This document shows positions 1 through 44,043 of a stretch of DNA of 44,043 bases, in pieces. The stretch's first letter is position 1, and every line of letters starts with the position of its first letter. Origin of the DNA: a virus. Location: positions 1-44,043 of IMG/VR virus record IMGVR_UViG_3300012929_000010; one strand, given 5' to 3'. The position numbers and the translations under genes are program-made. Under the pieces are notes generated by a model that was not told where the DNA came from, made no database searches, and saw nothing but the letters and a program-made list of their open reading frames with translations.

Positions 1-123
1 CGCGATCCTGGACCACATGGGGCCCGATAAGAAAAAGGTCATCATCGACCTGGAAGACGTGCTGAAGAAACTACCCCCCGACGTGCAGGCACTCGGCAAA
101 GAGGTGCTGGACGGGTCCATTTC
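1..123. repeat. Terminal direct repeat (circularisation overlap), left copy
   Basis: Bases 1-123 are identical to bases 43921-44043. A reading frame (the tape measure gene) runs through the repeat in phase, so the two ends are the same locus and the contig is a circle, or a circularly permuted genome, of 43,920 unique bases. The exact length suggests an assembler overlap rather than a biological terminal repeat, but the sequence alone cannot tell these apart. Confidence 0.95.
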
Positions 124-9694: not shown

Positions 9695-10353
9695 TCGTCC
9701 TGCTCCCGTGCCCGCTCTGCTGCTTGGCGCCGTTCCTCGGCGGCTCGCCGGTCGCGGCTTGCCTGGTTGATCCGCTCGGCGCGTTCGTGCAGGGCGTCGA
9801 GGTCGGTGCCGTCGAACGCGTCCCCGTCTTGTTGCATGCTGTCCATCCGTTTCGCGTATTTGGCGACGAACTCTTTGGGATCTTTGAGGTACTCGCCCGG
9901 GTCCGGGCCGACCGGGCTGCCCTGGTTGATCCTGTACCCCAGGTCTTTCGGGATGTGATCCCCGATCCACCCGCCGGGTGAGAGCGTGACGGCCGGGGGC
10001 GGCCCGGTGTGGTACCTGCACAGGGTGGTACCTGTGCGCGCTGGCCGGGGGCATCGCTCGCACACCGTGGTCCGGGCCGTGATCCGGGCTTGCACCCGGT
10101 CGGCGAACTCCTCGAACATGTCCGCTTTCACCCTGGCCATGCGCGCCTTGTGACGCCACCAGTTGTAGGCAAACATGGTCAGCGGCAGCACGCTGAACGT
10201 GAACCACACGGACCCGTTGGCGAGTCCGAACGCGACGATCCAGGCTTGCGTGGCGACACCAGCAAGCCAGCCGACACGTAAGCCGCGCCCGTTCAGCCAG
10301 ATCACGCCGGTGACGAGCAGCGCGTTGACCAGCCCCCAATACCAAGCGATCAT
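9691..10353 (-). CDS. Membrane protein with cytoplasmic zinc-binding motif
   Basis: The product has 220 aa from ATG 10353, which overlaps the previous stop by 4 bp. About three hydrophobic helices lie in residues 1-65 (WGLVNALLVTGVIWL, AGVATQAWIVAFGLA, WFTFSVLPLTMFAY). A soluble part follows with CERC and, after 10 residues, CRYH, a probable zinc knuckle near residues 98-115. The C-terminus is a highly charged helix (ERRQAAERAREQDE). No family recognised. The layout suggests a membrane-tethered protein with a zinc module on the cytoplasmic side. Confidence 0.75.
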   Translation of the reverse strand: MIAWYWGLVNALLVTGVIWLNGRGLRVGWLAGVATQAWIVAFGLANGSVWFTFSVLPLTMFAYNWWRHKARMARVKADMFEEFADRVQARITARTTVCERCPRPARTGTTLCRYHTGPPPAVTLSPGGWIGDHIPKDLGYRINQGSPVGPDPGEYLKDPKEFVAKYAKRMDSMQQDGDAFDGTDLDALHERAERINQASRDRRAAEERRQAAERAREQDE

Positions 10354-16868: not shown

Positions 16869-17755
16869 GCTTCACCGCCGGGTGCCTTGTCCCCAACCAC
16901 CTCGGTCAGAGTTGGACCGTCCAGTTGCAGCCACAGAGCGGACCAAGCCCACTCGCCACGTGGCTCCACTTTGGTGCCCTCAATGCAGATCCAGGCCCAA
17001 CGGTCGTCTCGCGTTTTCCGGGCGACAGAACCGCGCTCGTCCTTGGCTTGCGTGCCGATCTCGGCCGTGTCCGGGTCGCCCTCTCGCCACACGCGCGGCT
17101 CGGTCGGCGTGGCCAGGGCGGCCATCGGCGGGCATCCGTCGCGGTGGCCCATCATGCTGGTGCGCTGCCCGCATCGGTGGCAGTGGTAGTGAGTCTCGCC
17201 GGAGACGTCGCACTTGCAGCGTTCGCACCAGCCGAACACCTCTATTTCGGATGGTCCCTCGTCGTCGCGCGTGAGGTCGAGCACGGGCGCCGTGTCCGGT
17301 TCATCCTGCTTCGGTTCGGGTGCGGCGGGCATGAACAGTCGGGTGAAGTCGACCGGCTGTGCGAGGATCTCGCGCCGAACCTGCTGCACGCGGGGATGCT
17401 CCGGCCCGTACGTGGCGGCCCATGTCGCGGCACACTTCTCGGGGCTGCTGTGTGCGGCCAACTGAGCGCGCACAGCCACCAGGTCGGCCATGCGCTCACG
17501 CAGCCACGCGATCATCAACCCACCCGTGTTCGGGGCACCCAGCTCGACAAGCGTGTCCTCGACCCGCCGCAATCGGGCCACTTCCCCATGCGACGCACAC
17601 GAAGCGCGGTGGGTCCGCAGATCCTGTTTCAGGTACGCGATCTCGTAGTGGAGATCATGGTTCGAGCAACCCGGTTCGGCGATGGCCAACGATTGCAGGC
17701 AGTCCGGGCACGCCAGAACCGGCTGTTCAGGGCCGCCCGTACGGAAATTAGGCAT
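16865..17755 (-). CDS. Hypothetical protein with two zinc-ribbon motifs (296 aa)
   Basis: ATG 17755 overlaps the previous stop by 8 bp. The N-terminus carries CPDC (residues 16-19) and a later C-x-x-H-type pair (CSNHDLH). A helical region with AYLKQDLRTHRASC follows. Near residue 175 there is a second ribbon, CERCKC then CHRCG. The C-terminal 80 residues are rich in Trp and acidic residues (RDDRWAWICIEGTKVEP). It appears modular, perhaps scaffolding nucleic-acid contacts; no enzyme motif is visible. Confidence 0.72.
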   Translation of the reverse strand: MPNFRTGGPEQPVLACPDCLQSLAIAEPGCSNHDLHYEIAYLKQDLRTHRASCASHGEVARLRRVEDTLVELGAPNTGGLMIAWLRERMADLVAVRAQLAAHSSPEKCAATWAATYGPEHPRVQQVRREILAQPVDFTRLFMPAAPEPKQDEPDTAPVLDLTRDDEGPSEIEVFGWCERCKCDVSGETHYHCHRCGQRTSMMGHRDGCPPMAALATPTEPRVWREGDPDTAEIGTQAKDERGSVARKTRDDRWAWICIEGTKVEPRGEWAWSALWLQLDGPTLTEVVGDKAPGGEA

Positions 17756-18821
17756 CGGCTGGCTCCTCTTCTTCCTCGGCGAGCGCCCCGTCCACGACCC
17801 CCGTAACCAGATCGGTGACCAGGTTGGTGACCAGCGGCCGCGGATCGGTCACCGCGGCCTTCTTCCGGATCTTGAGCAGCACCCCGCCGAGCTCGTCCGG
17901 GCGCACGAGCACAGTCCGCGATTTGGTGCCGTCCGCCGGCCCGACCACGCCGAGCAGTTCCAGCTCATCCAGCAGCGTGGCCGCGCGGGCGAACCCGACG
18001 CGTAGTTTCCGCTGCAACTGTGACGGTGACCCGAACCCCGCGATCACCACCAGGTCAGCGGCCTGCTCGATCAGGCTGCTCGGGTCGACCGTGGGGCGCT
18101 CCTCCTCCGGCGGCAACTCAGCCTCATACACGTCACCGCCGGGCGAGCGGCCGGCTTGCGGGGTTTTCTCATCCGGCCACGACGCGGGGGTGAGCGCACC
18201 GCGGTAGCGGTCCCCGATCTGCACCAGGATCGCGCGACGCTGGTGGAACCGGTAGGTCTCGATGACCCCGCCGTGCGCTTTGGCGACGGTGGCAAAAGCG
18301 GCCACAGCGGGGCCTGGGAGGTCCGTACGCGGCATCGGTGCCGCTTTCAGGTAACCATCAGGCTCCCAGGCCCGGTCGTCGCGGAGAACGGCCCACAGGC
18401 CGCGCGGGAACTTGCTGAGGTCCCCGCCGGTGAACTCGATTTTGTCGCCTTCACCGAACAGGTCGGGGTCTTCCTCGACCTGCACGATGTGGCCGTCGTA
18501 CCGGATGTGCAACTGGTGGTCTTTGTTGTCCTTGGTGGCGGCCCGGAACGTGTTGCACACGTTCACCGCTTTCGCCAGCGGCCATAACATCGGCTGGGTC
18601 ATCTGCCCGTAGCACTCGACATACGTGTGCCCGACCGCGAGCCGGTTGGTGGAGGTGCCGGCGAGGATGTCTGTCTGCCCGGGGTCGCCGGGGAAGCCGT
18701 AGCCGCGTGCGGTGTGCAGCAGGATTCCGTTGGTGGCACCGCCTTCCAGGTCGGGGTGGGTGGTGGGTTTCAGGTCGCTGATCAACTCGATCAGTTTCAC
18801 GGTGGCGATACGGATGGTCAC
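17748..18821 (-). CDS. Protein with clamp-like N-terminal region and C-terminal FtsK-gamma winged helix
   Basis: The product has 357 aa from GTG 18821, overlapping the previous stop (GTGA). Residues about 245-310 match the FtsK gamma domain, the winged helix that reads orienting sequences on DNA: SPSQLQRKLRVGFARAATLL, then LELLGVVGPADGTKSRTVLV. No FtsK motor domain is present. Residues 30-215 have features like DNA sliding clamps: DILAGTSTNRLAVGHT, a PLAKAV segment, and AILVQIGDRYRGALTP, similar to the closing strand of a clamp. The clamp reading is mine and unproven. The tail is very acidic (EEEEEPADA). A role in loading host factors on phage DNA is possible. Confidence 0.7.
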   Translation of the reverse strand: MTIRIATVKLIELISDLKPTTHPDLEGGATNGILLHTARGYGFPGDPGQTDILAGTSTNRLAVGHTYVECYGQMTQPMLWPLAKAVNVCNTFRAATKDNKDHQLHIRYDGHIVQVEEDPDLFGEGDKIEFTGGDLSKFPRGLWAVLRDDRAWEPDGYLKAAPMPRTDLPGPAVAAFATVAKAHGGVIETYRFHQRRAILVQIGDRYRGALTPASWPDEKTPQAGRSPGGDVYEAELPPEEERPTVDPSSLIEQAADLVVIAGFGSPSQLQRKLRVGFARAATLLDELELLGVVGPADGTKSRTVLVRPDELGGVLLKIRKKAAVTDPRPLVTNLVTDLVTGVVDGALAEEEEEPADA

Positions 18822-20806: not shown

Positions 20807-21069
20807 ATCGAAAACCTTTCTTCCATATCTTCCGCTGGCAGGATTCCCATCCTGAAAGCGATGGCCACAGCGTGCGCACGGTCATGAGCGCCGAGCTTCG
20901 AATACATATCCCGACAGTGTGATTGGACCGTGCTTTCGCTGATGTAGAGACGTTGAGCGATTGCTTTTCGGGCGTTCCCGTTCGAGATGAGGTAGAGAAT
21001 CTCCCGTTCCCGGGGTGTGAGTCGTGCTGGTACCAGCGGGATGACGCGCCGGGTGGCAGCCCGGTTCAC
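20803..21069 (-). CDS. LuxR-type (GerE) helix-turn-helix regulator
   Basis: The product has 88 aa from GTG 21069 (GTGA overlap). Nearly the whole protein is a GerE domain: LTPREREILYLISNGNARKA, IAQRLYISESTVQSHCRDMY and SKLGAHDRAHAVAIAFRMG. There is no receiver or ligand-binding domain, so it acts as a free DNA-binding module, either on phage or host promoters. Confidence 0.9.
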   Translation of the reverse strand: MNRAATRRVIPLVPARLTPREREILYLISNGNARKAIAQRLYISESTVQSHCRDMYSKLGAHDRAHAVAIAFRMGILPAEDMEERFSI

Positions 21070-22226
21070 TGGTCCTGGCCGTCGCGGAGGTGCGCGAGTA
21101 CCGCGTCCAGGGCGTGACCGGGATGGCTGTCGGTAAGGATCTCCTCCAACCGGAGGATCAATGCTGTCGCCTCACCGGGGGTGAGGGAGTCGAGGCCGGT
21201 AATGTCGTTGCGGCCCACCAGAGTCCTGATGTCGTCCAGCTCGGCGCCATCCAGGTCTGTGTTGTATTCCAAAGTAGACAGAAGTGTCTTCAGGGTGTCA
21301 CGCTGGACATGTGTCGCGCCGAGACCCATGGTTTCGTTGAGAGCGGCCACATTCCGCTCAACGTCGGCCATGGACACCGCACTGTCTTTGATCTTCTGCA
21401 ACAGATCCTTGTCCGGGGCAGTGGCCAGGTCGGCGGCTTCCACCCGTACCGGCGGGAACTCGTCATCACGGGCGGTGTCGCCGTTCTGGATCGACTTCCC
21501 GATCACGAACAGGGCGGCCACATCGTCAGCTGTCCACTTGGCTTCCGGCATGCCGATCTTGGCTTCCAACTGGGACACGGTCACGTGCAGTCCGGCGAAG
21601 TTCTTGATCAGCGTCTGGATGTGGTACGCCAACGGTTTCGAGTCGGCCCTGCCGTCCTTACCATCCAGCTTCTCGACCAGCGTCTTTTTGCACAGGTCCA
21701 GCGCGGCCACCCGGAACCAGCGCGGGATCACCCCGAAAATAGCTTCCCTCAACCGGCGCGCGGCAGCATTCGCGTTGTTCAAGTAAATATCGTTCATGCT
21801 GACCAACTTGCGGGTACCGCTACCCACATCCATCTTGTGTTCGACAATGAACGTGTTCCCGGAACGCACGTTTGTCTGCAAGTCCCACGCGTACGCGAAC
21901 ATTTCCGACTGTCCCAGCTGGTCATTCCGGGACATTTCTTTAATGTCGAATGTGATGTTTCCCCAGCACACCGCGAGTTCGCGCGCCAGGTGGATGCTCG
22001 GCCCGGTGATCTGGCTGCCGCCCCGGGGCATCCGGAACGTGGCCACTTCGGCGAGTTCGTACTGTTTGCAGGCGTCTTCCATCCGGGCGCGGGACACGTT
22101 GATGGAGCGCGGGAACTCTTGCGCCATCAGCATCATCGCCCGGACTTCGGCGACCGCGCGCGCGGACTCGACCATGGTGGCCTGCCCCGCGCGGGTCCCG
22201 GATGGGGTGACCAGTTCGCTACTCAT
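21066..22226 (-). CDS. Probable single-strand annealing / recombination protein
   Basis: The product has 386 aa. ATG 22226 overlaps the previous stop by one base; a longer start at 22256 would lie inside the neighbour. Residues about 15-250 resemble a phage family found next to RecE/RecB-type nucleases: SARAVAEVRAMMLMAQEFPR, GGSQITGPSIHLARELA (69-85), FAYAWDLQTNVRSGNTF and NNANAAARRLREAIFGVIPR. Their position suggests pairing of complementary single strands made by the exonuclease at 22611. The C-terminal ~120 residues are helical and acidic. Assignment as an annealing protein rests on context and remembered family likeness. Confidence 0.65.
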   Translation of the reverse strand: MSSELVTPSGTRAGQATMVESARAVAEVRAMMLMAQEFPRSINVSRARMEDACKQYELAEVATFRMPRGGSQITGPSIHLARELAVCWGNITFDIKEMSRNDQLGQSEMFAYAWDLQTNVRSGNTFIVEHKMDVGSGTRKLVSMNDIYLNNANAAARRLREAIFGVIPRWFRVAALDLCKKTLVEKLDGKDGRADSKPLAYHIQTLIKNFAGLHVTVSQLEAKIGMPEAKWTADDVAALFVIGKSIQNGDTARDDEFPPVRVEAADLATAPDKDLLQKIKDSAVSMADVERNVAALNETMGLGATHVQRDTLKTLLSTLEYNTDLDGAELDDIRTLVGRNDITGLDSLTPGEATALILRLEEILTDSHPGHALDAVLAHLRDGQDQ

Positions 22227-22417: not shown

Positions 22418-22611
22418 TTGCCCGGCCCGTCGACGTCGCCGAAGTCGTTCAGGACGTCGGCGAGCACCTGGGGGGCGACCTTGCCCAGCTCGTGGGCGAC
22501 GAACTCCGGGTTGTCGGGGAAGTGGGCTTGGATCTCGCGCGAGTGCTTCTCGACCGGGTGTCCGGGCCCCGGACTGGTGACGGTGATCGTCACGGCAATG
22601 ATGGCGTCCAT
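22414..22611 (-). CDS. Hypothetical protein (65 aa)
   Basis: ATG 22611 overlaps the exonuclease stop by one base. A beta-like start (MDAIIAVTITVTSPGPGH) leads to a helical part (REIQAHFPDNPEFVAHELGK, then QVLADVLNDFGD). No family recognised. Coupling to both neighbours implies expression with the recombination genes. Confidence 0.72.
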   Translation of the reverse strand: MDAIIAVTITVTSPGPGHPVEKHSREIQAHFPDNPEFVAHELGKVAPQVLADVLNDFGDVDGPGK

Positions 22612-23657
22612 CAGCTGGTGGTCTCCTCCGCTAGCCGCTCTGCCCAGCCGGGCAGGCGTCCGTTGGCCACCGGGATCTCGAACCCGGTAGGGGTTTCTTT
22701 GTGGACGTACCCGGGCCACTGGTTGGTGGTGGTGCAGTGGCGGTACAGGTCCAAAGCCTTGTCGTTCAGCAACCGGCCCCACATGAGCGCGAGGCTGTCT
22801 AATTCTAGTACGGTCACGATGTAGGGCGCTACTTTTTCTTGCGCCACAAAGGCAAACACGATCTCCGTGGGGTCATCGGCCAGGCCGCACCCCACCGCCC
22901 GGTCGATATACCACGGTGCCTGCTGGTGATAGCCGTGCTCCACCGCGCTTTTCATGAACGATGTCGGTTCGGCCGAGCGGGCCGTCTTGTAGTCCACCAG
23001 AATCAGCCGGCCGTGCCGGTCACGGCGCCCGGTCAGGTAGTCCAGGCGGGCACGGCACATCACCTTCGTACGCGGGTCCTCACTGATCAACGTGACTTCG
23101 GCGTGGCCGCCACGGAAGAGGGGACCGGCGATGGGGTGGTCGTACACCGCCAACGCCATTTCCTGGGCCCGGTCGAGCTGGTGGGGCAGGACCGGGGTCT
23201 TGTGCTCGGCGTGCGCGGCTTTCTTGGCCTGCTGGGCGGCTTTGGTTTTGTAGTCGCCAGCGTCGATCTCGACCAGTTCGGCGCCGGCGCCGAGCACCAG
23301 GCGATGCACGGTGTGGCCTAGGTCGAACTCGTCTTTCGGTTCCTGTTCGTCGGGGTGGTCCTGCTGCCACCGGAACTTGGCCGGGCAGCCCTTGGGTGGC
23401 AGCAACAGCCGCGCGCCGGAGGAGGACAGCGACCCGCCGAGCACGGGATCGGCGTGGTAGTCCTCAACGGCCAGATCGAGATACAGCCCGGGGCCGGGGA
23501 CGAGCATTTTCGGCCGAGCGGCTTTCGCGGCGAGTTCCGCCAGCCGCTCGGCCAACACGGCTTTCTCGGCGGGAGACAAGGTTTCCACGTCGTCCGCAGC
23601 CCGCTCCGGAGCGGGTCCTACGTCGGCCGGGTCGACGAAAAACTCGCCATCGGTCAC
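22611..23657 (-). CDS. RecE-like exonuclease (PD-(D/E)XK fold)
   Basis: The product has 348 aa from GTG 23657 (GTGA overlap). After a variable ~50-residue start comes the RecE/DUF3799 pattern: GLYLDLAVEDYHADP, SLSSSGARLLL, FDLGHTVHRLVLG (H115), and the active site CRARLDYL (D206) with ILVDYKTA (D222, K224). C-terminal YHQQAPWYIDRAV is also typical. RecE-type nucleases degrade one strand from DNA ends to give 3' tails for an annealing protein, here probably the 21066 product. Confidence 0.88.
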   Translation of the reverse strand: MTDGEFFVDPADVGPAPERAADDVETLSPAEKAVLAERLAELAAKAARPKMLVPGPGLYLDLAVEDYHADPVLGGSLSSSGARLLLPPKGCPAKFRWQQDHPDEQEPKDEFDLGHTVHRLVLGAGAELVEIDAGDYKTKAAQQAKKAAHAEHKTPVLPHQLDRAQEMALAVYDHPIAGPLFRGGHAEVTLISEDPRTKVMCRARLDYLTGRRDRHGRLILVDYKTARSAEPTSFMKSAVEHGYHQQAPWYIDRAVGCGLADDPTEIVFAFVAQEKVAPYIVTVLELDSLALMWGRLLNDKALDLYRHCTTTNQWPGYVHKETPTGFEIPVANGRLPGWAERLAEETTS

Positions 23658-25599: not shown

Positions 25600-25851
25600 A
25601 TGACCCGTTTCGACCCTGCCGGACTGGCGGCCAGACGCGACAGCGCCGGGCTCACCCGGCTGCAACTCGCGGAGAAGATCGGCGCGACCACTCAGGCCAT
25701 CGGGTACTGGGAACGCGGGGAATTCACGCCCAGCGCAAGCTGGATACCGCTGCTCGCGGCCGCACTCGGATGCGGCCTGGACGAGCTGTACACCAACACC
25801 TCAGAGGAGGCAGCCGACACGGCCCAGCCGGCCCCACGCGGTGCCGCGTGA
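25600..25851 (+). CDS. XRE-family regulator, probable switch protein
   Basis: The product has 83 aa. ATG 25600 is chosen over the GTG at 25579 because the -10 element lies at 25587-25592, which would remove the GTG from the message. Residues about 6-65 form an HTH_3 domain: LAARRDSAGLTRLQLAEKIG, ATTQAIGYWERGEFTPS and IPLLAAALGCGLDELY. A polar tail follows. Position beside two GTGAA/TTCAC operators suggests Cro- or repressor-like control of both early units; autoregulation is expected. Confidence 0.85.
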   Translation: MTRFDPAGLAARRDSAGLTRLQLAEKIGATTQAIGYWERGEFTPSASWIPLLAAALGCGLDELYTNTSEEAADTAQPAPRGAA

Positions 25852-26396
25852 CGTCACTTCCCCATGGCAACGTTCCGCTGTTCGCGCTGGACGGCCACGG
25901 GGATGACGACATCGGCGCCAAAGCCGGCCACTGGACCGAACTCATCCGCCGCGCCCGCCTCGGCCGAGAGTTCAAAGCGGCCGCTTTCGTGTTCGCGTCC
26001 TACGCCAACGCGGACGGAACCGGCATCTACTGCGGGGTAGCGCGCTTCGCCGTCGACTGTGAATGCAGCTACCGCACCGCGCAACGCCACCTGGACAAAC
26101 TACGCAAAACCGGGCTGGTCGAGCTGGTCAAACGGGGCAACAGCCGTCGCGGACTGTCCGACCAGTACCGCCTCACGTTCGGCCCAGACGTCCTCGACCA
26201 CATCACCGTTCTGACGCCAACCGACTACGACCAGCAGATCGACCACATACGCCACGCGAACAAAGCCAAAGCCGAACGCAACTACCACCGGCACACCGCC
26301 AAGCCTGTGGACAACCCCGGTTCTGACGCCACCCTAGATGGCGTCAGAACCGACACAGAACCCCACAGTTCTGACGCCATCATGAGTGGCGTCTGA
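25848..26396 (+). CDS. Winged-helix protein, candidate replication initiator
   Basis: The product has 182 aa from GTG 25848 (GTGA overlap). Residues about 25-110 match the HTH_36 type of winged helix common in phage replication and plasmid Rep proteins: REFKAAAFVFASYANADG, then FAVDCECSYRTAQRHLDKLR, GLVELVKRGNSRRGLSDQYR. The C-terminal third is charged and polar. Four perfect TTCTGACGCCA copies, one single-mismatch copy at the stop codon and a DnaA-box match lie within the 3' part of its own gene, as seen for initiators that bind an origin inside or next to their gene. A regulator function is the alternative. Confidence 0.72.
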   Translation: MTSLPHGNVPLFALDGHGDDDIGAKAGHWTELIRRARLGREFKAAAFVFASYANADGTGIYCGVARFAVDCECSYRTAQRHLDKLRKTGLVELVKRGNSRRGLSDQYRLTFGPDVLDHITVLTPTDYDQQIDHIRHANKAKAERNYHRHTAKPVDNPGSDATLDGVRTDTEPHSSDAIMSGV

Positions 26397-26883
26397 AACA
26401 TGTTTCTGACGCCAAATCCGACACTTTCTGACGCCACCCATGAGTGGCGTCCCACCTTCCATAGATCACCTACCCAAAACAGAGACCTCCCATCAATCAC
26501 TTCCAGCCCAACCACCGACCGCGAGGCAAGACGCCAACACCTCACAGAAAGCCATCTCTATGAGTGACCCACTCGTCGCTGCCGGTTACGTCCACTGCCC
26601 CCAGTGTTCTGACGCCAACTACCCCACCGAAGCAACCTGGATCACTCCCACCCACATCCTCGCCACCTACCCCAACCAATGCGGCCACATCACCCCCTGC
26701 GCCTGGATCATCGACACCACCCGATGCACCTACCAAGCCCGATGCACCGCCACCACCCGCGCCGGACGCCAATGCCGCGCCAAACCCAAACCCAACACCG
26801 ACCTCTGCGGCACCCACACCAACAAGTCACGCCGCCAAACCACGTGACATCTGACGCCAAACCATCCACGGCTGGCGTCAGAA
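26209..26883. repeat. Iteron-like array, candidate replication origin
   Basis: The 11-mer TTCTGACGCCA occurs perfectly on the plus strand at 26209, 26321, 26369, 26404, 26426 and 26607, and inverted at 26339-26349 and 26873-26883. One-mismatch copies lie at 26387-26397 (inverted) and 26849-26859. Several are arranged as dyads with 7-13 base centres; 26319-26331 with 26339-26351 is a perfect 13-bp pair. TGTGGACAA (26306-26314) is the complement of the DnaA box TTGTCCACA. The gap at 26397-26559 is poorer in GC than its surroundings. Together this looks like an iteron origin. Confidence 0.75.
26560..26847 (+). CDS. Small zinc-finger protein beside the iterons
   Basis: The product has 95 aa. ATG 26560 is chosen because the longer frame from 26440 would encode iteron repeats with poor codon bias. 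Motifs: VHCPQCSDA, NQCGH and a C-terminal Cys3-His module (ARCTATTRAGRQC then DLCGTH) of the same C-x9-C-x10-C-x2-H type as the terminase small subunit and the 15911 gene. It probably binds zinc and may bind DNA. Iteron copies lie within and just after it. Confidence 0.7.
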   Translation: MSDPLVAAGYVHCPQCSDANYPTEATWITPTHILATYPNQCGHITPCAWIIDTTRCTYQARCTATTRAGRQCRAKPKPNTDLCGTHTNKSRRQTT

Positions 26884-26982: not shown

Positions 26983-27162
26983 ATGCTCACCCTCCAAAAC
27001 CCCACCACCAGCACAAACACCCCCAACACAGATCTACTCCCGGCAGCCGGCGAACAGCTCGTTACCTGCGACTGGTGCAAGGGGGAAGGCACCGTGACCA
27101 ACGAGGACGGCACCTTCACGTGCATCAAATGCGGCGGCGACAAGGTGGTGCCCAAGAAATGA
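26983..27162 (+). CDS. Small zinc-ribbon protein (59 aa)
   Basis: ATG 26983 has AAAAAGGA five bases upstream, the best ribosome site in this area. The N-terminal half is Thr/Asn-rich and probably flexible; the C-terminal half has CDWCKGEG and CIKCGGDK, a zinc ribbon like those of the DnaJ central domain. The stop overlaps the next ATG. The stretch 26884-26982 before it holds only a short direct repeat (CCGCTACAC at 26910 and 26922). Confidence 0.75.
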   Translation: MLTLQNPTTSTNTPNTDLLPAAGEQLVTCDWCKGEGTVTNEDGTFTCIKCGGDKVVPKK

Positions 27163-27503
27163 TCACCCCCAAGAATCCGGTCGGTCATGTGGCCACGCTG
27201 CCTGACGCCACCCGCGAGTACGTCCGTACCGGTGTGTGGCCGGTCGTCTCAGAGGCTCTCCAGTCGATCCCGAACGCCACCTGGACCCGATCCCTCGCCA
27301 ACCCTCGTCTGTGGCTCTGGCAGGCAACTGGGGGCGCGGCGGACGTGCTGTGGACGTTCGAGGGCATGACGTTCGAGGCTGGGCCGGAGTGGCACTTTCA
27401 CCGCGGGGGTGTGTCACCGGTCGGCTACCCGACGTCGCCGGGGTTCGCGGACCCCGGCGAGCCGGGCCCGTTCCAGCTACCGCTGTCAACGTGGCAGTCA
27501 TGA
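27159..27503 (+). CDS. Hypothetical protein (114 aa)
   Basis: ATG 27159 overlaps the previous stop (ATGA). The sequence has WPVVSEALQSIPNATWTRS, then WLWQATGGAADVLWTFEGM, and a Pro/Gly-rich end. Many Trp residues suggest a compact beta fold. No family recognised. Confidence 0.72.
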   Translation: MITPKNPVGHVATLPDATREYVRTGVWPVVSEALQSIPNATWTRSLANPRLWLWQATGGAADVLWTFEGMTFEAGPEWHFHRGGVSPVGYPTSPGFADPGEPGPFQLPLSTWQS

Positions 27504-29462: not shown

Positions 29463-30152
29463 GTGGCCAGATGCGTGGGGAAAAGCCGCCGGCTGGGCGG
29501 GCAGCAGTGCAAGAACCCCGCGATCCGCGGCGGGACAGTGTGCCGCATGCACGGCGGGTCAAGCCCGAAGACCAGGGCGAAAGCCGCGATCCGCGCGGAA
29601 GTCTTGGACTGGGGTCTCGGTGACTCCGGTATCGACCCCTCGGAGATCCTGCTTCGGCTCGTGTCGCAGTCCGCGGCGCGAGCCCAGTTTTACGCCCGCT
29701 TGTTGCAGCAGGCGTATGACGCGGCCGAAGCGGCCCGGGCGGCTGGTGTGGACGTCGGGGACATCACCCCGCCGGACGTCGACACCATGGACAAGCGTGC
29801 ACGCCGGCAGCTGGCGACGATCGCGCTCGACCAGATCTCCACGGTCGGCGGCATCACGGCGTTGATCGGGCACACCTACGGCGACACGAAGACCGGCGAG
29901 ATCTATGCGACCGGTGAAGCCGTGCGTGGCTTGGCGTTGCTGGAAGCGCAGGAACGCGACCGGTGTGCCGGGTTCGCCGAGAAGGCGATCAAGGCCGGGT
30001 TGGCTGAGCGGCAGGTCAAGTTGGCTGAGCAGCAAGGCGAGATGATCGTCGCGGTGTTGCGTGCAGTGTTCGACGAGCTCGGCTTGTCGGACGAGCAGCG
30101 GGAGCGGGTGCCTGGTGTCGTCCGCCGTCACCTCACCGCCATCGCCGGGTGA
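29463..30152 (+). CDS. Terminase small subunit with N-terminal zinc module
   Basis: The product has 229 aa from GTG 29463. Residues 4-30 form a zinc module (RCVGKSRRLGGQQC and TVCRMHGG), the HGG motif typical of a group of phage DNA-packaging proteins. The remainder is helical (EILLRLVSQSAARAQFYARL, RARRQLATIALDQ, VKLAEQQGEMIVAVLRAVFD). It lies immediately before, and overlaps, the large terminase gene. Small subunits recognise the packaging site and regulate the motor. Confidence 0.8.
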   Translation: MARCVGKSRRLGGQQCKNPAIRGGTVCRMHGGSSPKTRAKAAIRAEVLDWGLGDSGIDPSEILLRLVSQSAARAQFYARLLQQAYDAAEAARAAGVDVGDITPPDVDTMDKRARRQLATIALDQISTVGGITALIGHTYGDTKTGEIYATGEAVRGLALLEAQERDRCAGFAEKAIKAGLAERQVKLAEQQGEMIVAVLRAVFDELGLSDEQRERVPGVVRRHLTAIAG

Positions 30153-31617
30153 CCCGTGGGAGCACGCTCTCACGCTGTTGGAGGCTGACAACACGGCGCG
30201 CCGTCACGTAAGGGACGGCGCGCTGTGGGTGACGGATCGTTTGGGTGAGCATCTGTGGTCGATGCAGGTTCAGGCGATGGAGTCGGTGCGGGATCACCGG
30301 TTTACGGCGATCAAGGCGTGCCACGGGCCGGGCAAGAGCAGGTTGGCGAGCCGGGTCGCGGCGTGGTGGATGGAGACCCACCCGGCCGGTAGCGCCCGCG
30401 TGGTGACCACCGCCCCGACCGGGGACCAGGTCCGGGCCATCCTCTGGGCGGAGATCAACAACGCGGCGAACACCGCCGTCGCCCGCGGGCAGGCGTTCCG
30501 GGGGCGCATGAACGAAACCGAGTGGAAGGTCAACAACCAGCTGGTGGCGTTCGGCCGGAAACCCTCGGACTACAACCCGCACGCGTTCCAAGGCATCCAC
30601 GCCCGCTACGTCCTGGTCATTCTCGATGAGGCGTGCGGGATTATCCCGCACTTTTGGACCGCGGCGCGCGCGTTGACCACGGGGGAGGACTGCCGGATTT
30701 TGGCGATCGGCAACCCGGACGACCCGGACAGCGAGTTCGCGAAAGTGTGCGCGTCGGACAAGTGGAACGTGATCACGATCAGTGCGTTCGACACCCCGAA
30801 CTTCACCGGCGAACCCGTCCCCCCCGAACTGGCCGCGGTCCTGGTCGGCCCCACCTACGTGGAGGACATGCGCACCGAGTACGGCGTCGATTCCCCGATC
30901 TACGCGGCGAAAGTGTTGGGTGAGTTCCCGCTCGATTCCGATGACGGCGTGGTCGCCTACTCGAAACTGAAACGCTGCTCCGCGCCGGAACCGATCCCCC
31001 GCACCGCGGAGGAACAAGTCCCGGTCGAGCTCGGCGTGGACCTGGGGGCCGGCGGCGACGAAACGGTGATCCAGGAACGCCGCGGCATGGTCGTCGGCCG
31101 CCGGTGGACGACACGCACACGGGACGCGATGGCCGCAACGGGCCTGATTGTGCAGGCCATCAGGGACACTGACGCCACCAGCGTCAAGGTCGATGTGATC
31201 GGGATCGGTTGGGGGGTGGTGGGCCGGTTGAACGAGCTGGTGGCGGAGGGGAAGATCACGTGCGTGATCATCGGGGTGAACGTCGCGGAGTCGTCGGCGC
31301 AGCCGGAGAAGTACGCGCGCCTGCGGTCACAGATCTGGTGGGAGGTCGGCCGGCGCCTGGTCGAAGATCGGGGGATCGACTTTTCGCACCTGCCCGGGGA
31401 GTATCGGGACAAACTGTTCGCTCAACTGTCCGCCCCGAAATACACCCACGATTCGTCCGGTCGGATCGTGGTCGAACCGAAAGACGAAACGAAGAAACGC
31501 CTGGGCCGGTCACCCGATAACGCTGATGCGTTGTTGTTGTCGTTCTACGTCCCGGCCGGTGACGGTGGGGACGCGCTCGCTTACCTGCGGGCGTTGAAAC
31601 AAGCTGGGAGGGGGTGA
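30115..31617 (+). CDS. terL: Terminase large subunit
   Basis: The product has 500 aa from GTG 30115, which has GGAG ten bases upstream and lies inside the small-subunit end; the frame could start earlier but would overlap more. ATPase motifs: CHGPGKSR (residues 68-75, Walker A variant) and LVILDEAC (166-173, Walker B). Nuclease acidic residues: GVDLGAGGDE (near 307), KVDVIGIGWG (near 359) and SPDNADALLL (near 466), as in RNase H-like terminase nucleases. The enzyme cuts and pumps phage DNA into the prohead through the portal encoded next. Confidence 0.93.
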   Translation: MSSAVTSPPSPGDPWEHALTLLEADNTARRHVRDGALWVTDRLGEHLWSMQVQAMESVRDHRFTAIKACHGPGKSRLASRVAAWWMETHPAGSARVVTTAPTGDQVRAILWAEINNAANTAVARGQAFRGRMNETEWKVNNQLVAFGRKPSDYNPHAFQGIHARYVLVILDEACGIIPHFWTAARALTTGEDCRILAIGNPDDPDSEFAKVCASDKWNVITISAFDTPNFTGEPVPPELAAVLVGPTYVEDMRTEYGVDSPIYAAKVLGEFPLDSDDGVVAYSKLKRCSAPEPIPRTAEEQVPVELGVDLGAGGDETVIQERRGMVVGRRWTTRTRDAMAATGLIVQAIRDTDATSVKVDVIGIGWGVVGRLNELVAEGKITCVIIGVNVAESSAQPEKYARLRSQIWWEVGRRLVEDRGIDFSHLPGEYRDKLFAQLSAPKYTHDSSGRIVVEPKDETKKRLGRSPDNADALLLSFYVPAGDGGDALAYLRALKQAGRG

Positions 31618-42793: not shown

Positions 42794-44043
42794 GTGGATG
42801 TCGTGCCCCCCATGGTGGTCCGGTTTGTGGCGACCACCACCGAAGCGGTCGTCGAGATCAAAGCGCTGACCGCGTCGTTCGAGCAGGCCGGGGCCGCGGT
42901 GAAGGCCTCGACCACCGAAATGTCGGCGGCGGTCGCGAAGGCCGGCGAGTCGGTCACCGCGGAGACCCGCGCGGTGCAGGCCGAGAACGACAAGATCATG
43001 CGCTCGTTCCAGGCCACCGCGGCGTCCGCGACCCGGGCGAACGAAGAGATCTACCTGTCGATGCAGGCCATGCGCTCCAAGTCCGTGTCCGAGCTGTCGG
43101 CGCTGGAAGCCCAGGAAGCCAAAGCGGCCGCGGCCACGGAGGCGTTCGGGGCGTCGATGGTCGCGGGGGAGACGACCGCGGCGGAAGCGGCAGCGGTGCA
43201 GGCCGGGGCGTGGAAGAAAGTCGCGCTCGGTGTGGGGTTGGCCGCTGGTGTGATCGCGGGCGAGTCGCTGCATATGGCCGCGGACTTCCAAACCAGTACG
43301 ACCAGGTTGCAGACCTCCGCGGGGGAGTCCGCCGAAGGCCTCGCTGTGGTCCGCAAGGGCATCTTGAACATGGCCGGCGAAGTGGGTGTGAGCGCCGACG
43401 AGATGTCCAAGGCCATGTACATGATCGAGTCCGCGTCGTATCACGGCGAAGCCGGGCTTGGTGTGCTGAAAGCCGCGATGGAAGGCTCGAAAGCGGAAGG
43501 CGCGGACGCCGCGAAGGTCGCCAACGCGTTGACCTCGGCGCTGCGGGACTACTACCCGCACGCCGAGAAAGCCGGGGAAGTCACCAACGCCGCGGCGTTG
43601 GTGATGTCCAAGTTCGTTGGGGCGACCAGCGCGGGCAAGATGACGTTCGACGACCTGGCCGGCAGCCTGCACACCCTGTTGCCGGCGGCGATGGCCGCCG
43701 GTGTGGGGATGGATGACGCGCTCGCCGCCCTGGCCAGCATGACCGTGCACGGCGTGTCCGCCGAGCAGGCCACGCAGAACCTCGCGCACGCGCTCGGCCA
43801 TTTGCAGACCCTGACCGCTCCGCAGGCGAAAGAGTTCGCCATGTTGGGGATCTCGGCCAACGACCTGAAACTGAACTTGGGGCAGCGTGGCCTGACCGGG
43901 ACCGTGGAACTGATCGGCAACGCGATCCTGGACCACATGGGGCCCGATAAGAAAAAGGTCATCATCGACCTGGAAGACGTGCTGAAGAAACTACCCCCCG
44001 ACGTGCAGGCACTCGGCAAAGAGGTGCTGGACGGGTCCATTTC
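42794..44043 (+). CDS. Tail tape measure protein, N-terminal part (continues at base 2)
   Basis: GTG 42794 lies three bases after the previous stop with GGAGG upstream, and the frame is open to the window end and continues in phase into 2-2395. Residues 1-160 are helical (VVEIKALTASFEQAGAAVKA, SALEAQEAKAAAATEAFGAS) and probably coiled coil. From about residue 163 the TP901-type tape measure core is seen: FQTSTTRLQTSAGESAEGLA, VSADEMSKAMYMIESASYHG, YPHAEKAGEVTNAAALVMSK and MTFDDLAGSLHTLLPAAMAA. The joined length is 1173 aa. Confidence 0.93.
   Translation, partial: MDVVPPMVVRFVATTTEAVVEIKALTASFEQAGAAVKASTTEMSAAVAKAGESVTAETRAVQAENDKIMRSFQATAASATRANEEIYLSMQAMRSKSVSELSALEAQEAKAAAATEAFGASMVAGETTAAEAAAVQAGAWKKVALGVGLAAGVIAGESLHMAADFQTSTTRLQTSAGESAEGLAVVRKGILNMAGEVGVSADEMSKAMYMIESASYHGEAGLGVLKAAMEGSKAEGADAAKVANALTSALRDYYPHAEKAGEVTNAAALVMSKFVGATSAGKMTFDDLAGSLHTLLPAAMAAGVGMDDALAALASMTVHGVSAEQATQNLAHALGHLQTLTAPQAKEFAMLGISANDLKLNLGQRGLTGTVELIGNAILDHMGPDKKKVIIDLEDVLKKLPPDVQALGKEVLDGSI
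43921..44043. repeat. Terminal direct repeat, right copy
   Basis: Identical to bases 1-123; see the left copy. The tape measure frame passes through it without a break, which fixes the circular join at 43920/1. Confidence 0.95.

Follow-up and report, generated by a model that had tools for sequence, protein, structure and literature searches.

The winged-helix gene and the repeats behind it

The locus consists of a winged-helix gene that is preceded by an XRE/Cro-type gene and followed by an array of short repeats, a GC-poor segment and a Cys-rich gene. It lies in the IMG/VR record IMGVR_UViG_3300012929_000010, positions 1-44,043; this whole stretch of 44,043 nucleotides is referred to as the window. 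The features are listed below, with the strand in brackets.

25600..25851 (+): XRE/Cro-type HTH gene (Pfam HTH_3, 1e-10), directly upstream of the winged-helix gene and overlapping its start
25848..26396 (+): winged-helix gene, proposed replication initiator, 182 aa (PHROG, Pfam, AF2)
26209, 26321, 26369, 26404, 26426, 26607 (+): exact direct copies of TTCTGACGCCA
26339, 26873 (-): exact inverted copies of TTCTGACGCCA
26387 (-), 26849 (+): one-mismatch copies of TTCTGACGCCA, inverted and direct, respectively
26209..26219 (+): outlying iteron within the proposed initiator gene, exact, kept in L009
26306..26314 (-): DnaA box TTGTCCACA (complement TGTGGACAA), encoding PVDN of the proposed initiator
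26319..26453 (+): core iteron array, with dyad 1, dyad 2, a single iteron and a terminal dyad with a shortened arm
26319..26351 (unstranded): dyad 1, iterons 26321-26331 (+) and 26339-26349 (-)
26369..26397 (unstranded): dyad 2, a CATGAG dyad, iteron 26369-26379 (+) and one-mismatch iteron 26387-26397 (-)
26404..26414 (+): single iteron 3, exact, without inverted arm
26426..26451 (+): terminal iteron, a CATGAG dyad, 22 bp behind iteron 3, partial inverted arm TGGCGTC at 26445-26451
26454..26530 (+): candidate DNA unwinding element, low GC, A/C-rich top strand, CACC/ACC repeats
26560..26847 (+): Cys-rich (zinc-finger-like) gene, 3' of the array
26607..26617 (+): outlying iteron in the Cys-rich gene, exact, kept in L009
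26849..26883 (unstranded): outer dyad, one-mismatch copy at 26849 (+) and exact copy at 26873 (-), 13-base loop

An identical 123-bp direct repeat was found at the two ends of the window (1-123 and 43921-44043), the tape-measure reading frame runs on across these ends, and their junction is spanned by a related 43,895-bp contig, IMGVR_UViG_3300049794_000015 (L009/G001). Therefore, the window is a complete phage genome of about 43,920 bp, circular in the assembly. The IMG/VR collection gives no completeness for this record, despite the terminal repeat.

The first-pass annotation had reported eight exact and two one-mismatch copies of the 11-mer, and these were all recovered between 26209 and 26883, six of the exact copies being direct and two inverted. 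Their number is far above chance, since only 0.85 copies with up to one mismatch would be expected in the whole window against the 11 observed, a count that was reached in 0 of 100 shuffles. No comparable cluster was detected elsewhere when the 11-mer was counted genome-wide; the single copy outside the array in the 44 kb, at 10148, has one mismatch. The perfect 13-bp dyad (arms 26319-26331 and 26339-26351, 7 bases apart), the two CATGAG dyads and the DnaA-box complement were also present as annotated, and the overlap of the array with the 3' end of the winged-helix gene was correct, the stop codon (26394-26396) sitting inside dyad 2. The direct copies of the core array are spaced 48-35-22 bp. 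Behind them, the arm of the terminal iteron runs into CCCACC (26451-26456), and a CCACC-type junction behind the last iteron recurs in most relatives.

The repeats were conserved in the close relative L009, which is 96% identical: the eight copies from 26209 to 26617 were unchanged at 88 of 88 sites, and 14 of the 374 sites between copies had changed. The outer dyad lost its inverted arm (the 26873 copy) in L009 and is probably accessory. Since L009 keeps the inner copies and half loses the outer dyad, the core of the array was placed at 26319-26453. The origin core would run from 26306 to about 26530, with the outer copies accessory; the origin reading of the first-pass annotation is retained, but not the extent of 26209-26883 that it had proposed.

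The 25848 product matched Pfam HTH_36 and, weakly but consistently, replication-initiation families of PHROG (phrog_1032, 1e-8; phrog_270, 2e-7), as well as, again weakly, the O-like families phrog_678, phrog_391 and phrog_8540 (~5e-5). Its AlphaFold2 (AF2) model contains a confident winged helix at about residues 26-110 and a helix at 124-150, followed by an array-encoded tail (residues 155-182) that is predicted to be disordered. The structural neighbors found by Foldseek in the PDB were general winged-helix regulators, with 4pta and 5kbj, entries for plasmid initiators, ranking lower, and among the structural matches in BFVD were a putative "replicon initiation protein" and, from phage Min27, a lambdoid O. 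A DNA-binding domain of the winged-helix type was obtained by AF2, Foldseek, HTH_36 and PHROG alike.

No family match above the cut-off was found for the Cys-rich gene, and its length is not conserved in L009. In that contig (5715-6060) the gene is frame-shifted and enters the reading frame of the next gene, the homologue of 27159-27503, which reflects an error in the assembly or else a gene that changes fast.

Relatives and their own iterons

When the window sequence was searched against the phage collection, neither the DNA nor the protein search returned a match at the default cut-off. The relatives were reached via a match to a Micromonospora plasmid, and a class-wide search added three loci only. 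The plasmid-borne homologue (35% identity) carries six copies of GTCTGGGGATCA with dyads, the first of them within the 3' end of the gene, flanked by TTATCCACA boxes. Arrays directly behind a winged helix were found in Nocardia, Rhodococcus, Micromonospora, mycobacterial phages and metagenomes, at the same place and with iterons that differ by lineage (GTCTGGGGATC, TCTGGGGGTCA, ACGACCGGACA, CTGACGGGACA, ATCAGGGGACA, CTGCGCTCACC and others). The iteron of locus L020 is that of the Micromonospora plasmid homologue and that of L021 is TCTGGGGGTCA, while the M. abscessus prophages carry ACGACCGGACA in 33-bp units containing a DnaA box. IdentityCrisis (M. smegmatis) and WillG (M. aichiense, 10.9 kb) are phages with arrays of their own, and the initiator-with-array module of L016 (OR387121.1, 4741-5853) contains eight copies of CTGACGGGACA. 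In the nearest distinct relatives, L030 (ATCAGGGGACA) and L034 (CTGCGCTCACC), the spacing is 49-35-22 bp, compared with 48-35-22 in the window. The arrays of the other lineages consist mostly of direct copies, and the final iterons are spaced 22 bp apart, give or take a base or two, in most lineages.

The PHROG matches of these proteins were also recorded. P0006/P0008 matched phrog_2447, phrog_3171 and phrog_1032, and L016 matched O-like families. The mycobacteriophage relatives belong to phrog_26991, which is labeled as of unknown function, and their C-terminal halves match the replication-initiation families phrog_2447 and phrog_3171.

The occurrence of arrays was quantified in the 600 bp behind each winged helix at 48 loci, an array being an 11-mer with at least five copies at up to one mismatch, and two upstream windows per locus and shuffles were used as controls. 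Arrays were detected at 38 of the 48 loci, which are related by descent so that the counts are not independent: 22 of 24 strong, 11 of 12 intermediate and 5 of 12 weak matches. The set includes the duplicates or near-copies L027/L037, L034/L039, L045/L069 and L011-L013. By contrast, no array appeared in the upstream control windows or in the shuffles. Among the strong and intermediate relatives, no array of five or more copies was found in L044 (4 copies), L048 and L056, nor in 7 of the 12 weak matches; the exact-word finder is conservative, misses the lambda iterons, and loci scored as lacking an array may have one. Iteron similarity grows with protein identity (r = 0.53, 0 of 2000 permutations).

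The segment behind the array was compared in the same way. In the window, the GC content of the first 30 bp behind the array is 0.43, against a genome mean of 0.66. When 32 loci were aligned at the last phased iteron, the mean GC was 0.49 at +30 to +60, down from about 0.66. In this interval ACCA occurs 66 times per kb, whereas its frequency is about 1-5 per kb before the array and does not exceed 12.5 per kb in any bin from +60 on; TGGT is absent from the interval, and A and C make up 0.71 of that strand. By its GC content, the segment beside the array is a candidate for an easily melted region. Two members of one clade with a near-identical iteron, L059 and L061, differ in the repeats behind the array (ATCA in L059, ACCA in L061), which suggests that this second repeat may also change in concert. 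The GC-skew switch expected at the array by the first-pass annotation was absent: the local skew is strong (-0.35), but there is no genome-wide switch, and the A/C-rich strand explains at least part of the local value.

Several observations on individual relatives were made. The 10.9-kb M. aichiense phage records contain few structural genes and a serine integrase, and may be satellites. In L045/L069 (G276), two adjoining winged-helix matches (5237786-5238076 and 5238164-5238484) precede one array; the putative initiator domain may have been duplicated in tandem. The alphaproteobacterial matches L017 and L018 were left out as too weak; they have some repeats, in a different geometry. We do not claim that the winged-helix and Cys-rich genes of the window are split halves of a fused protein such as that of L030 or of the M. 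abscessus phages. The ORF from 26440 begins with MSGVPPS, which recalls the GVPPS of L030 behind its array; against the idea, a 2-base shift is present in L009 in the 26440-26560 interval, as well as the frame change in the Cys-rich gene.

The locus as a putative replication origin

Observed in these genomes are an array that is conserved, that has a family-wide position and geometry and that diverges along with the protein, as well as a GC dip and a clustering of DnaA boxes. On the strength of this sequence evidence, the segment from 26306 to about 26530 is very probably the replication origin of this actinobacterial phage, and the 25848 product its initiator. The iteron-origin reading of the first-pass annotation also gains support from the distant relatives, in which other iterons occupy the same position with the same spacing beside a GC dip and DnaA boxes. 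The same layout of predicted initiator and array, with sites of differing sequence, is found in dozens of related phages and prophages. Since the iterons lie in or just behind the gene of their putative initiator, initiator and sites would therefore travel and diverge together.

The binding, unwinding and helicase-loading steps, together with the part played by DnaA, we infer from lambda and the iteron plasmids (PMC5043065, PMC7466680, PMC4980987). Dimers of the winged-helix protein would bind the two dyads, and further copies would occupy the two 22-bp-phased iterons beside the GC-poor, A/C-rich segment. Binding would open this segment, and the one strand with ACC repeats would be kept open. 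Host DnaA at the 26306 box may help to recruit the host DnaB helicase and replisome, a host route that is proposed because no phage-encoded helicase or replisome was recognized.

Other functions of a DNA-binding protein with clustered sites were considered. If the protein were a transcription regulator, the repeats would be operators that control the rightward operon or damp its own transcription, and the winged-helix regulators (e.g., MarR/ArsR) among its best PDB fold and sequence matches, the dyad symmetry of the repeats and the XRE regulator just upstream would all suit such a role. We regard it as unlikely, because the repeats lie behind the gene and not in front of it, and in many relatives they lie inside the coding sequence, the ORF extending about 350-930 bp past the winged helix. 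Neither does the region contain a promoter-like sigma-70 match, although this is a weak test for actinobacteria, and the 22-bp phasing, the adjoining GC dip, the ACC repeats and the DnaA boxes would not be expected of operators.

It is very improbable that the winged-helix protein binds the array as a site of partition (parS-like) or packaging (pac-like). Such sites could likewise appear as clustered short repeats beside the gene of a DNA-binding protein, and a terminase-like gene is present at 30115, but the array is at least 3 kb from it, no ParA-like protein was found among the proteins scanned, and the homologues fall in replication-initiation families rather than in terminase or partition families. 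Least of all do we expect the dyads to act as RNA hairpins (terminators or attenuators), with the repeat family as a by-product. Terminator-like sites were not found at all, against 2.0 expected, the unpaired direct copies are conserved as well as the dyads, and the arrays of other lineages are largely direct copies, even though the dyads of the window can form stems of 11-13 bp.

The proposed origin was then compared with known ones. As in lambda O/ori-lambda and its lambdoid relatives, e.g., the Stx phages (PMC7466680; review PMC5043065), the predicted initiator has an N-terminal DNA-binding domain, dyad iterons lie in its gene directly behind that domain, and a GC-poor, A/C-rich unwinding segment follows the array; the iteron spacing is 20-24 bp in lambda and 22 bp in the last pair of the window. 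However, no homology with lambda O was detected (hhalign probability 0.1; HMM score below zero), and the ORF of the window ends at 26396 within the array, without the O-type C-terminal half that binds the loader. No gene for a helicase loader of the P/DnaC type was found among the proteins scanned, and the array, unlike that of lambda, has a DnaA box. The arrangement would thus work like lambda O/ori with DnaA boxes of the plasmid type; membership in the O family is not claimed. With the iteron plasmid origins (P1, pSC101, R6K, RK2; PMC5043065, PMC4980987) it shares iterons of about 22 bp, DnaA boxes, an adjoining unwinding element and the predicted use of the host helicase. It differs from them in that the array is behind and inside the initiator gene, with dyads and not direct repeats alone, and in that the winged-helix protein is unrelated by sequence to RepA, RepE, pi and TrfA, whose families gave no match in Pfam, NCBIfam and PDB sequence searches.

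Closer at hand, the mycobacteriophage family phrog_26991 has, behind its winged helix, iterons of its own and DnaA boxes that encode PVDN/PVNN repeats, but here a single ORF runs through the array and ends in a Cys-rich domain, the part that matches phrog_2447/3171. The RepA/RNA origins of extrachromosomal mycobacterial prophages are likewise actinophage origins (PMC7157519). For these, a lambda-like position inside repA is one option that the authors suggested, and they report that repeated sequence motifs were looked for without success at that place (PMC7157519); they belong to a different, ParABS-linked maintenance system (PMC7157519).

No description of the present module in actinophages was found by paper searches of the open-access literature. 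The initiation of replication in temperate actinobacterial phages that lack replication enzymes is largely uncharted, and the module would provide a recognizable origin for phages and prophages of Nocardia, Rhodococcus, Micromonospora and Mycobacterium, as well as for the 10.9-kb M. aichiense records. With it, origin, initiator and binding site can be predicted from sequence for proteins so far named only "helix-turn-helix protein" or "unknown function" (phrog_26991), and the matched pairs of initiator and divergent iteron are material for studying how such pairs change together.

DnaA boxes and the replication gene content

Only two TTRTYCACA boxes occur in the window genome, at 26306-26314 and 32557. 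Across the relatives, 37 DnaA boxes were counted behind the winged helices and none in twice as much upstream DNA; the boxes were found at 20 of the 48 loci. Since many relatives have no box, DnaA boxes are therefore no general requirement. Their presence follows the length of the ORF: a box was found at 14 of 19 loci with a short ORF, ending in or before the array, and at 3 of 20 with a long ORF that runs through it (Fisher p = 0.0003, not corrected for descent). In a tree built from the 39 rows whose array has four or more copies, the ORF-length label and the box label each need about four changes. Within the four-member clade of the window (99/100 support), the short ORF and the box are both present in the window and L009, and neither in L030 and L034. 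It is conceivable, as a tentative idea that rests on few independent events, that this widespread type of actinobacterial phage origin has two interchangeable routes to the host replisome, in which very small initiators whose ORF stops within the array would leave helicase loading to host DnaA and long ORFs would keep a C-terminal domain. A testable split is thus posed between DnaA-assisted and self-contained helicase loading.

The first-pass annotation had recognized no replication enzyme in the genome. A scan of the likely DNA-metabolism region and many, not all, of the small and structural genes agreed in so far as no polymerase, primase, helicase or loader was recognized, but DNA-metabolism functions are present. 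These genes and the terminase-like gene are the following.

17748-18821 (-): FtsK-gamma-domain protein, C-terminal FtsK-gamma winged helix
19123-19605: RusA-like resolvase
22611-23657: exonuclease VIII-like protein
30115-31617: terminase-like gene

The product of 17748-18821 carries at its C-terminus an FtsK-gamma winged helix of the KOPS-reading type, with no FtsK motor recognized; its gene adjoins those of the RusA-like and exonuclease VIII-like proteins, and it also matches phrog_6152/13700. Near the exonuclease VIII-like gene, the product of 21066-22226 (-) belongs to phrog_3657 (E 3e-88, unknown function), and by its position is a candidate single-strand annealing (RecT-like) protein.
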